Assembly (NCBI GenBank): GCA_945867815.1
Contig: CAMBIX010000003.1
Coordinates: forward strand, 62,001 to 126,000
From: an uncultured Veillonellaceae bacterium
GTDB lineage: Bacteria > Bacillota > Negativicutes > Veillonellales > Veillonellaceae
Direction: 5' to 3'
Length of the DNA: 64,000 nucleotides
Notes under the pieces: generated by a model
Seen by the model: the letters and a program-made list of their open reading frames with translations, nothing else
Database searches by the model: none
Told to the model about the DNA's origin: nothing
Program-made: the position numbers and the translations under genes
Part shown: positions 49,746 through 54,150 of the stretch, piece by piece
How positions within the stretch are numbered: position 1 is the stretch's first letter
How the letters are laid out: every line of letters begins with the position of its first letter

Positions 49746-49822
49746 TGGTGGCGGTACACGGATTTGAACCGCGGACACATCGGGTATGAACCGATTGCTC
49801 TAGCCAACTGAGCTATACCGCC
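49746..49822 (-). tRNA. tRNA-Met (CAT), elongator
   Basis: A cloverleaf with 7-bp acceptor GGCGGTA/TACCGCC, D loop AGCTCAGTTGGCTAGAGC, anticodon loop TTCATAC, T loop GTTCAAATCC, discriminator A and encoded CCA. The normal acceptor pair marks it as elongator-type; tRNA-Ile(CAT) with lysidine is the alternative. Confidence 0.92.
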
Positions 49823-49828
49823 ATATAT

Positions 49829-49904
49829 TGGAGCTAGTGACCGGGATTGAACCGGTGACCTTATCCTTACCAAGGATACGCTCTGCCGACTGAGCTACAC
49901 CAGC
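49829..49904 (-). tRNA. tRNA-Thr (GGT)
   Basis: Acceptor GCTGGTG/CACTAGC, anticodon loop TTGGTAA, T arm GGTTCAATCC, discriminator T and encoded CCA. Confidence 0.95.
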
Positions 49905-49929
49905 AAGGATTATCCATCATATAAAAAAA

Positions 49930-50005
<76 letters not shown>

Positions 50006-50009
50006 ATAT

Positions 50010-50094
<85 letters not shown>

Positions 50095-50104
50095 ACAAAA
50101 AAAT

Positions 50105-50180
50105 TGGAGCTGGCGATAGGAATTGAACCCACAACCTGCTGATTACAAGTCAGCTGCTCTACCATTTGAGCTACGCCAGC
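50105..50180 (-). tRNA. tRNA-Thr (TGT)
   Basis: Acceptor GCTGGCG/CGCCAGC, anticodon loop CTTGTAA, T arm GGTTCAATTCC, discriminator T and encoded CCA. It is the first gene of the array after the tandem promoters. Confidence 0.95.
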
Positions 50181-50301: not shown

Positions 50302-52284
50302 TTATTTTTCAGATTTTTTTACAGGCGTATCCCGAAGTTCCACCCCACTAATGAAACCATCACTTTTACCTATTGTAAAAGCTAAATATTGAGGCTCTTT
50401 ATTAGGTGCCGCATATTCCATGATTTCTGACTTTCCATCATCCACTATACGCGTTGGTTCACCATAAAGATACAATAACAAATACTTAGAATCGCCCATA
50501 GTTACACCTCGCGGTGTAACAGCCGTACTCCGTGTAAGCATAACTCGTCGAATCTGATGACTATCATCATAACCAATAACCACATTGTTATAACCTATAA
50601 AGTCAAAGCCATCAAACTTTCCTTTTTCCGTCCAAGACTGATTCGGATTACCTGTAAAAGTCTTGCCCAAACGATAGCCACATAACTTAAAATCATCCGC
50701 TGTCAAGATGCCTGGTATATAAGCATGTAAGGACACATCTGGCACCATAAAACGAGACCATACCTGAGCATCAATCGTGTTAATGGTTACAATTTTATTC
50801 CGGTAAATAGTAAACACTAAGAATCCATTATCTTTCTTAGATAATTTTTGCCCAATTTTCGTATCATTATACAACCGCTGGGCTTCTGCTAATTCCTGTG
50901 GCGTATAAGTACTATATAAGAACAATAAAGAACCATTGTCATTATTTTGCCACATCGCTTGTGGCGCCCCATAAACAAAGAGCATTTCACCACGTTCGCT
51001 GCCTACATGAATGCCCCGATTGGTTGACTGCCCAATGATATACTGCAAAAGAGCTTCTTTACGTGCTTTTTCGGCTTCTGCAGCCGCTTTTTTAGCCGCC
51101 TGCGCATCGCCAAAAGAGGTCTCTTTTCCTCTAGCTGTTGCCTTTCCCTCTAACTTTTGGGTATTCTTTACTTTTTCTATCCCTATTTTATTGGCAGCAG
51201 CTGTCTTTTTGGTCACTGCTGGAGTAGACGGAGTTAATGCTTTTTTAACGTCTAAGGACGCATTCATTTTATCAGCTAAAGCTAACAATTCTGCATCTGC
51301 CGTCTTCACTGCCGTAGATACAGTGGCCTCTTTTTCAGCAGGAATGTCTTTTTCTTCTATTTCCGTATTGGTATCTGTTGTATCACTATCTGCGTCCAAA
51401 CCAGCTCTAGCGGCTATAATGGCTGCTTTTTGCTTGGCAAGTTCACTAGGCGTTACATCTTCTTCATCAGCCTGTGCCTCTAACTTATCAGTAAGGTCTT
51501 GAATATCTTTCAAGACATCTCTTGTATCTTGAAAGCCATCCAAAATAGACTGAGATTCAGCCCGCAAAGTCTGATCCTGCTTAATCGCATCTAAACCTAC
51601 GTGAATATTGGTAACAGCATTGGCCTTAAAACTATAAATAAGCCCCTGCTCATCAATCGCCGGCACGGCTCCCTTAACTGGCCCTACGTAAATAGTATAG
51701 CTCCCCGCCTTAGTCAATACTTGCTTAAAAGGATATCCTGATAAACGCTTTAACACATCATCTCGCCCTTGGGTCTCAACAGCTGCGACACTTTGTCCAT
51801 CTAGGCTCAAATCCGCCATCGTTAATGGCTGTAGATGGCTTGCTGTAAATGTTGTACCTACAGCTTTCAATTCGGCTTCTTTTTTGTTTTCTTCCTTTAC
51901 TGCATTCCACCGTGTTGATAAACGAGCCACCAAGAGGCGCGTTTCGTACCAACTTGGCATATGAGCCAAGCGCGTCATAGGACTTAAGGTCCGTCCCATC
52001 GATTCTTTTGCATAGTCCATACTATCTACCATAGGCTGACTTTTCTTAGCTATATCTATAGCAGAATCCTTACGTACAACCTGCACAGGCTGATTTTCTT
52101 TTATTTGTTCAGCCACTGCAGATACCGATTTCTGCCAAGCAGCCACCTTGGACTCATCCGGCTCTGTCATCACCACATTCTCTCCCTGATTCATCGTCTG
52201 TGCCGATACAGGATAGACCGTCCATAAGCCATAGGTTAGCAAAGCCGCTATCGTTAATTTAACACTCCATTTGGTCATTTTCAT
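50302..52284 (-). CDS. Large exported protein of unknown function with two SmpA/CAP-associated-like repeats
   Basis: A 660-residue protein with a signal peptide (residues 1-29, ending VSAQT). Residues 200-400 are charged, helical and Lys/Ala/Glu-rich, likely coiled coil. The C-terminal 240 residues hold two similar units, each around a YG-P motif (RGEMLFVYGAPQAMW and SKYLLLYLYGEPTRI). This pattern recalls SmpA or CAP-associated folds, but I do not identify a family. Its ATG overlaps the hypB stop by 4 bp, so it is translated from the folD-hypA-hypB message, an odd partnership. Confidence 0.8.
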   Translation of the reverse strand: MKMTKWSVKLTIAALLTYGLWTVYPVSAQTMNQGENVVMTEPDESKVAAWQKSVSAVAEQIKENQPVQVVRKDSAIDIAKKSQPMVDSMDYAKESMGRTLSPMTRLAHMPSWYETRLLVARLSTRWNAVKEENKKEAELKAVGTTFTASHLQPLTMADLSLDGQSVAAVETQGRDDVLKRLSGYPFKQVLTKAGSYTIYVGPVKGAVPAIDEQGLIYSFKANAVTNIHVGLDAIKQDQTLRAESQSILDGFQDTRDVLKDIQDLTDKLEAQADEEDVTPSELAKQKAAIIAARAGLDADSDTTDTNTEIEEKDIPAEKEATVSTAVKTADAELLALADKMNASLDVKKALTPSTPAVTKKTAAANKIGIEKVKNTQKLEGKATARGKETSFGDAQAAKKAAAEAEKARKEALLQYIIGQSTNRGIHVGSERGEMLFVYGAPQAMWQNNDNGSLLFLYSTYTPQELAEAQRLYNDTKIGQKLSKKDNGFLVFTIYRNKIVTINTIDAQVWSRFMVPDVSLHAYIPGILTADDFKLCGYRLGKTFTGNPNQSWTEKGKFDGFDFIGYNNVVIGYDDSHQIRRVMLTRSTAVTPRGVTMGDSKYLLLYLYGEPTRIVDDGKSEIMEYAAPNKEPQYLAFTIGKSDGFISGVELRDTPVKKSEK

Positions 52285-52943
52285 GCGTTTTCTTTTACCT
52301 TTTCAATTTCTTTTGTTAGCCATGACAGCCACGTATCAATGCCTTCTCGGCTCGTACAGCTAACTTCAAATACATTAGCTGTTGGATTCAAATTATGAAT
52401 ATCTTCTAAGGCTTTTTCCTTATTAAATGGTACATAAGGCAATAAATCAATTTTATTTAACACAATGCCTTTCGATTCTTTAAAGATTAAAGGGTATTTT
52501 ATAGGTTTATCTTCCCCTTCTGTGACCGATAAAACGGTAATCTTCATGGCTTCACCAATATTAAATTCGGCTGGGCATACCAAATTGCCTACATTTTCAA
52601 CAATAATGACATCCAAGGAATCCATAGGTAATTCCCCTAGGGCATCTTGAATCATTTGGGCATCTAAATGGCAACCGCCCACCGTATTAATCTGAAGTAC
52701 TGGTACACCTGTCGCATGAATACGTTCCGCATCTCGTGTTGTATATAAATCGCCTTCAATAACAGCTACAGAAAACTTTTTAGACAATTCTTTTAAGGTC
52801 GTTTCCAACAAGGTAGTCTTACCTGCTCCTGGCGACCCCATCAAGTTACATACAAAAATACCCTTTGTCTTAAATTCTTTTTTTAACGAATCAGAAATGG
52901 CATCATTCTTAGCCATTACATCTGTCATAACTTTAACTTCCAT
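52281..52943 (-). CDS. hypB: Hydrogenase nickel incorporation GTPase HypB
   Basis: A 220-residue SIMIBI GTPase delivering nickel to [NiFe]-hydrogenase (or urease). The P-loop MGSPGAGKTTLLE lies near 35, the metal-binding Cys-His in NTVGGCHLDAQM near 88, VENVGNLVCPAEF near 113 and NKIDLLPY near 160. It lacks a His-rich N-terminus. It follows hypA by 39 bp and overlaps the next gene by 4 bp. Confidence 0.95.
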   Translation of the reverse strand: MEVKVMTDVMAKNDAISDSLKKEFKTKGIFVCNLMGSPGAGKTTLLETTLKELSKKFSVAVIEGDLYTTRDAERIHATGVPVLQINTVGGCHLDAQMIQDALGELPMDSLDVIIVENVGNLVCPAEFNIGEAMKITVLSVTEGEDKPIKYPLIFKESKGIVLNKIDLLPYVPFNKEKALEDIHNLNPTANVFEVSCTSREGIDTWLSWLTKEIEKVKENA

Positions 52944-52982: not shown

Positions 52983-53324
52983 TTAATCCATATCTATCGT
53001 TGCTACCTTAAGCTCTCGGCCGCTAATGGTCTGTATGAAATGACTACCGCACTTAGGGCAGACAAATTTATAATCTTCCACACCAAACTCTTGGTCGCAA
53101 TCAAGACAGCGTCCCTTTATGGGAATAGTCTCAATTTCTAACTTAGCCCCTTGTGCCAGTGTCCCCTTGGTCACAATATCAAAACAAAACAAAAGCGAAT
53201 CCGGCTCAACTCCAGACATAAGGCCTAATTGTAATTGAACGGCATGAATAACATGGCCTCCATTAGCTTCCATAGTCTGAATGGCAATATCAACAATGCT
53301 CTGTGCTATCGACATTTCGTGCAT
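52983..53324 (-). CDS. hypA: Hydrogenase nickel metallochaperone HypA
   Basis: About 113 residues. In the family MHE at the N-terminus binds nickel and the sequence MHEMSIAQSIVDIAIQ fits, so the ATG at 53324 is preferred over one at 53336. The ribosome binding site (GGGGGTG) is then rather far. Two CXXC pairs (CLDC, CPKC) bind zinc. It overlaps the end of the FolD-like gene by 35 bp or more. Confidence 0.93.
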   Translation of the reverse strand: MHEMSIAQSIVDIAIQTMEANGGHVIHAVQLQLGLMSGVEPDSLLFCFDIVTKGTLAQGAKLEIETIPIKGRCLDCDQEFGVEDYKFVCPKCGSHFIQTISGRELKVATIDMD

Positions 53325-54150
53325 GATACGCGTCATACACCCCCTCTAACATCATCGTCGTTGTAACAGTACCTACGCCACCTGGCACGGGGGTAAGAGC
53401 CCACGCTACTTGCGCTACGGATTCATAATCCACATCGCCTACAGTCTTACCGTCCAATTCATTAATACCCACATCAATAACTACAGCACCAGGCTTAATC
53501 ATGGTGCCATCAATTAAATGTGCCTTGCCTACAGCCGCAATAACGACATCAGCGTCAAGTAAAAGCTCTTTCATATTCGTCGTATGGGAATGGCAAATCG
53601 TTACCGTTGCATTACGAGCCAACGCCATAAGCGCTACCGGCCGCCCAACGACAGGGCTCCGCCCAACGACTACTACATGCTTACCATCTAGGGGAATTTT
53701 GTAATAATCTAATATAGCTAAACAAGCCCGTGGCGTACAAGGGGCAAACCCACCCTTACCACTGCTAACAAGACCTACATTTGTCGTTGTTAACCCATCT
53801 AGGTCCTTGTCAGGGCGTAAGCAGGCAATAGCAGCCGCCTCGTCAATTTGTTTAGGCATAGGCATTAGGGGTAAAACACCATAAATACTATCATCTTGAT
53901 TCATAGTTTCTATGGCCTCTTCCACCTCTTTTTGCGTCGCCGTCTCTGGCAACTGTACCTTTACGACACCTAAGCCTGCCTGCTTCGCCTTCTTTTCCAT
54001 AAAAGACAAATACATTTGAGCCGATCGGTCATTACCAACCAGCAATATGCCCATCTGTATATTCAAGCCTTGGTTCTTCATTGTATCCAACCAAGCTGTT
54101 AACTTTTTTTGATGTGCCTCAACTACGGGCTTACCGTCCAATCGAATCAT
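53290..54150 (-). CDS. folD: FolD-like methylenetetrahydrofolate dehydrogenase, cyclohydrolase residues missing
   Basis: A 286-residue protein of the FolD family: folate domain, then an NAD(P) Rossmann domain with VVVGRSPVVGRPVALMA near 165 and a C-terminal TPVPGGVGTVTT. Aligned gap-free with E. coli FolD, Tyr47 is kept. The catalytic Lys position reads Met51 (YLSFM where YVASK is expected) and the catalytic Gln reads Leu95 (GVLPLMPMP where GILVQLPLP is expected). Asp in DKDLDG is kept. These changes should remove cyclohydrolase but may spare dehydrogenase activity. It heads the hypA-hypB operon, with which it overlaps. Confidence 0.9.
   Translation of the reverse strand: MIRLDGKPVVEAHQKKLTAWLDTMKNQGLNIQMGILLVGNDRSAQMYLSFMEKKAKQAGLGVVKVQLPETATQKEVEEAIETMNQDDSIYGVLPLMPMPKQIDEAAAIACLRPDKDLDGLTTTNVGLVSSGKGGFAPCTPRACLAILDYYKIPLDGKHVVVVGRSPVVGRPVALMALARNATVTICHSHTTNMKELLLDADVVIAAVGKAHLIDGTMIKPGAVVIDVGINELDGKTVGDVDYESVAQVAWALTPVPGGVGTVTTTMMLEGVYDAYHARNVDSTEHC

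Follow-up and report, generated by a model that had tools for sequence, protein, structure and literature searches.

Organization of the folD-hypA-hypB locus

The window, i.e., the whole 64,000-nucleotide stretch of DNA that was analyzed, carries a folD gene followed on the same strand by hypA, hypB, and a long ORF (Table 1). The folD frame starts with ATG, is open at its full length, and encodes 286 residues; both Pfam domains scored above the gathering threshold (PF02882, 200.7 bits; PF00763, 91 bits). HypA and HypB likewise exceeded their cut-offs (TIGR00100, 108.4 versus 88.1; TIGR00073, 265.3 versus 121.2). An MHE N terminus is typical of HypA, and the hypA ORF as listed (52983-53336) probably starts too early, with the MHE-type N terminus at 53324 as the true start. 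The original prediction that folD leads a hypA-hypB operon with overlapping frames is borne out by the shared strand and the 35-bp overlap of folD and hypA.

Table 1. Features of the folD-hypA-hypB locus (window coordinates)
Feature	Position	Strand	Basis
folD, methylene-THF dehydrogenase without the cyclohydrolase Lys (Met51) and Gln (Leu95)	53290..54150	(-)	ORF, Pfam, alignment
Met51 codon (= catalytic Lys54 of E. coli FolD)	53998..54000	(-)	codon arithmetic and alignment
Leu95 codon (= Gln98 of E. coli FolD)	53866..53868	(-)	codon arithmetic and alignment
hypA, nickel metallochaperone; start at MHEMS, 35 bp inside folD (longer ORF begins at 53336)	52983..53324	(-)	TIGR00100 over cut-off, match from residue 5
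hypB, nickel-incorporation GTPase	52281..52943	(-)	TIGR00073 over cut-off
660-aa ORF, family unassigned, signal-peptide-like N terminus, probable fourth operon gene	50302..52284	(-)	ORF; relatives downstream of hypB

FolD of the window lacks the cyclohydrolase Lys and Gln

When the protein was aligned with E. coli FolD (1b0a) by phmmer (E 1.5e-55), Tyr50, Lys54, and Gln98 of the E. coli enzyme fell on Tyr47, Met51, and Leu95 of the window FolD, confirming the substitutions and the retention of Tyr47, DKDLDG, and GRSPVVGRP that had been read from the sequence initially; PVPGGVG is retained as well. The alignment had been described as gap-free, which is true between the key sites; overall it contains two single-residue gaps, both outside the Tyr/Lys/Gln region. 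Arg234 and Cys58 are also absent, being replaced by Glu231 and Ala55, respectively. The best match to the NCBIfam bifunctional FolD models scored 274.7 bits, below the cut-off of 392, and none of the 25 models listed passed.

Alignment with FolD homologues showed that Met occupies the catalytic-Lys site in Veillonella atypica and in all 12 genomes sampled from the window's family code; hence Met51 is neither a sequencing error nor a chance occurrence. V. atypica is the nearest named relative found, in a scan of named genomes that recovered three relatives, and its FolD is 62% identical with the same Met and Leu. The AlphaFold model of the window FolD, built with 64 sequences, had a mean pLDDT of 95.9 and a pTM of 0.92, and Foldseek returned 3l07 as the best match (TM 0.94), with solved FolDs at about 0.93; superposition on 1b0a gave a TM of 0.93 and an rmsd of 1.3 Å at 36% identity. 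One might suspect gene decay, or an error of assembly or sequencing, when two catalytic residues deviate from the canonical set, but this explanation can be virtually discounted given the full-length open frame, the confident model with its similarity to solved FolDs, and the same residue classes in all 12 family-code genomes and V. atypica, a conservation that already contradicts it.

We then considered whether the enzyme is still bifunctional, with another residue (e.g., window Lys54 or Lys56) supplying the cyclohydrolase function. Lys53, Lys54, and Lys56 lie near Met51, with Lys54 one helical turn away, and E. coli position 57 has been described in the active site of Pseudomonas aeruginosa FolD (PMC3338484). 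However, window Lys54 is not conserved in the family, and a Lys at the position of E. coli 59 is mostly confined to the window's family code, where the position of E. coli 57 is mostly Thr or Val. Among 228 homologues with a readable Lys site, no compensating Lys was conserved and no alignment column gained a Lys, or any basic residue, across the Lys-less clade. Tyr47, Asp116/Asp118, and the NADP motif are invariant or nearly so. As Gln98 and Arg234 are absent too and FchA is present (see below), retained bifunctionality appears highly unlikely.

Lys-less FolDs are accompanied by FchA

A search for a second canonical folD identified the window FolD as the sole FolD of the source genome (1.97 Mb, 99.7% complete), which encodes exactly one FchA (PF04961, 215.9 bits) and one formate-THF ligase (Fhs). 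The fchA gene lies directly downstream of fhs, on a contig other than that of folD. No hut-like genes were present among the ORFs of the 3.5-kb fhs-fchA locus, and a histidine-degradation context for FchA was rejected because fchA directly follows fhs. A gene of about 390-400 aa found downstream of folD in some families was also set aside, as it encodes an amidohydrolase-like protein with a HutI score far below the cut-off.

To survey this pairing, 120 Negativicutes genomes (the class of the window) and 109 Clostridia genomes (the class of a Lachnospiraceae genome) were searched for both proteins. The final table comprised 220 genomes in which the Lys site could be read, FchA being counted at 120 bits or more; among them are V. 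atypica and a Clostridiales genome that was reached through its locus. L131, a duplicate of L006, was removed beforehand. FchA was present in 92/93 genomes with only Lys-less FolD versus 18/123 with only Lys-containing FolD, and in all 4 genomes with both types. The same pattern was seen in Clostridia (Lys-less only, 35 with FchA and 1 without; Lys only, 2 with and 63 without) and in Negativicutes (57 and 0; 16 and 42). With relatedness ignored, Fisher's test of Lys loss versus FchA gave a P value of 4e-41, which overstates the evidence since the trees contain only 2-4 independent Lys changes, too few for an independent-pairs test to inform. Lys and Gln were mostly lost jointly, both being absent in 97 sequences and kept in 127. 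Together with the single FolD and FchA of the source genome, the 92/93 co-occurrence strongly supports the early proposal that a separate cyclohydrolase such as FchA is required.

The rule is one-directional, i.e., a Lys-less FolD implies FchA, but FchA does not imply a Lys-less FolD, as 18 Lys-only genomes also carry FchA. The only Lys-less-only genome without FchA was G155 (locus L194), a 1.2-Mb Clostridia genome in which neither FchA, at E values up to 10, nor Fhs was found; this genome may be incomplete or reduced. Since the hydration step can also proceed spontaneously (PMC5688156), such an exception could survive. Weaker FTCD_C matches of 80-120 bits occurred in 9 of the 42 FchA-negative Lys-only Negativicutes. 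FTCD_C (PF04961) proteins in this range, encoded in G001, G004, G009, G013, G017, G018, G027, G032, and G045 together with a canonical FolD, perhaps represent a different subfamily with another role.

In a FolD tree built with the trait columns masked, Lys-less FolDs fell mainly into one clade (SH-aLRT 96) with Clostridia-type and Negativicutes-type branches. The four Lys-less groups on the FolD tree were FchA positive in 43/44, 52/52, 3/3, and 1/1 cases. Inside this mostly Lys-less clade, two FchA-positive loci (L068 and L069, from G069 and G074) kept the Lys with Gln98 changed to Glu and have fchA after folD; this lineage could represent either an intermediate state or a reversal. Separate lineages (L165/L166/L168 and L087) that fall elsewhere than the main Lys-less clade have Lys54 changed to Gln with Gln98 kept, and all are FchA positive.

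Gene neighborhoods provide a partly separate line of evidence from co-occurrence. Lys-less folD stands beside fchA and/or fhs in 25/37 Clostridia loci and 30/62 Negativicutes loci. In the former it adjoins fchA in 21/37 and fhs in 10/37; in the latter, fhs lies just upstream in 23/62 and fchA upstream in 7/62, three of these 7 with fhs downstream. Among 129 Lys-containing folD genes, folD is followed by fhs in 59, and only 2 stand beside fchA, namely, the Gln-to-Glu pair L068 and L069.

A predicted dehydrogenase-only FolD and its precedents

Altogether, these results make it very probable that the window FolD is a dehydrogenase-only enzyme, that FchA performs the cyclohydrolase step, and that the hypA-hypB linkage is inherited and unneeded for the mechanism. 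FolD would act as an NAD(P)-dependent 5,10-methylene-THF dehydrogenase that has lost the cyclohydrolase step, and FchA would interconvert 10-formyl-THF and 5,10-methenyl-THF, so that Fhs, FchA, and FolD would together form a route from formate to methylene-THF, or the reverse; both the loss of cyclohydrolase activity and the flux direction are what we infer. The dehydrogenase-only assignment made at the outset is strongly supported by the single FolD and FchA, the co-occurrence above, and published E. coli mutants. FolD K54N has no detectable cyclohydrolase activity and about 19% of the dehydrogenase activity, and Q98H retains about 1% and 8%, respectively (PMC5688156). For the cyclohydrolase reaction, the Lys has been described as the general acid-base, with the Gln positioning it (PMC3338484; PMC3368264), although a simulation study left the role of the Lys unsettled (PMC9173628); in P. 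aeruginosa FolD, Arg234 forms a salt bridge with Asp121 (PMC3338484). Because both E. coli mutants lose part of the dehydrogenase rate, natural Lys-less FolDs presumably adapted other residues, for which the clade-specific residue changes are candidates.

The E. coli FolD (1b0a) and the human MTHFD1 DC domain (1a4i) share the fold and the Tyr, Asp, and NADP motifs with the window FolD, which differs in lacking equivalents of Lys54, Gln98, Arg234, and Cys58. The direct precedent is Clostridium perfringens, whose FolD, according to Aluri et al., reportedly is dehydrogenase-only though annotated as bifunctional, with FchA said to perform the cyclohydrolase step and Fhs present. The source genome resembles this reported arrangement in all three components; unlike C. 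perfringens, it belongs to a different class, its folD lies apart from fhs-fchA, and folD precedes hypA-hypB. That study (Aluri et al. 2016, Microbiology 162:145-155) is cited in PMC7219735. Separate FchA and FolD of the same pathway are also found in the Wood-Ljungdahl fchA-folD clusters of acetogens, e.g., Sporomusa sphaeroides (PMC12456013) and Acetobacterium woodii (PMC10472528), but the genes are dispersed in the source genome; the comparison covers FchA and FolD. Yeast MTD1 (1edz), a monofunctional NAD-dependent methylene-THF dehydrogenase, is comparable in the predicted activity, though very distant (phmmer E 2e-10), and a monofunctional enzyme of Peptostreptococcus productus is cited in PMC6443876.

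The FolD/FchA split is therefore widespread, as about a hundred related anaerobes share it; it is also largely known and no new kind of enzyme. The main inference of the original prediction is right, with modest novelty, and the window FolD is mostly expected. In the literature searched, no paper was found that states the association of the Lys/Gln signature with FchA as a rule, although a search cannot prove absence. Databases label Lys-less FolDs as bifunctional, which is probably wrong for this clade. The survey suggests that more than 40% of the genomes sampled from Clostridia and Negativicutes encode a FolD lacking the cyclohydrolase residues, and that FchA then becomes indispensable; metabolic models would change, with fchA predicted to be necessary wherever the sole FolD lacks the Lys. 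As E. coli FolD K54 mutants are carolacton insensitive (PMC5688156), the Lys-less clade is predicted to be insensitive too.

Probably inherited linkage of folD to hypA-hypB

Across the Negativicutes surveyed, 20 loci of six family codes had the order folD-hypA-hypB: those of V. atypica, of all 12 genomes sampled from the window's family code, and of seven genomes belonging to f5, f9, f10, f26, and f27. Three of these have the order fhs-folD-hypA-hypB, and one of the three (L059) has a hydrogenase maturation protease gene between folD and hypA. Outside these lineages, hypA is not adjacent to most Lys-less FolDs. Inherited clustering is suggested because other families show fhs-folD-hypA-hypB; most simply, the window order would be a remnant of this kind of cluster, fhs now being beside fchA, a direction of change that we infer. 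The suggested connection of one-carbon metabolism with the maturation of nickel enzymes is supported as conserved gene order; as far as the sequences go, the connection between C1-folate and nickel is one of gene order alone. HypA-HypB has ordinary likely clients, since a [NiFe] hydrogenase large-subunit gene lies elsewhere in the source genome and Veillonella commonly carries putative Ni-CODH genes (PMC11338639).

The conserved order, the hydrogenase gene, and the intervening protease gene of L059 could also indicate that FolD has been repurposed, acting on another substrate or being linked to the maturation of nickel enzymes. We give this very little credence: the remaining fold and site, including the (nearly) invariant Tyr47, Asp116/Asp118, and NADP motif, are FolD-like, and fhs or fchA is the neighbor in other lineages of the clade, so the notion of a repurposed folate enzyme found no support. 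Because it is the sole FolD while Fhs and FchA are kept, the window FolD most likely supplies the dehydrogenase step. A broader proposal joins several of these strands. The widespread Clostridia/Negativicutes clade (without Lys54 and Gln98, and usually without Arg234) would be FchA dependent and carolacton insensitive, and in Veillonellaceae-like bacteria hypA-hypB would be coexpressed with folD because the flux through C1-folate is run jointly with nickel enzymes (hydrogenase or Ni-CODH); as a whole, this seems rather unlikely.

The 660-aa ORF overlaps the hypB stop by 4 bp and had no match in Pfam or NCBIfam. Relatives ranging from weak to clear follow hypB in other genomes that share the window's family code, as well as in V. 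atypica, so this ORF may belong to the operon as a conserved fourth gene. Just downstream of the operon, at 49746-50180 on the (-) strand, lies a cluster of five tRNA genes, two for Met, two for Thr, and one for Tyr.
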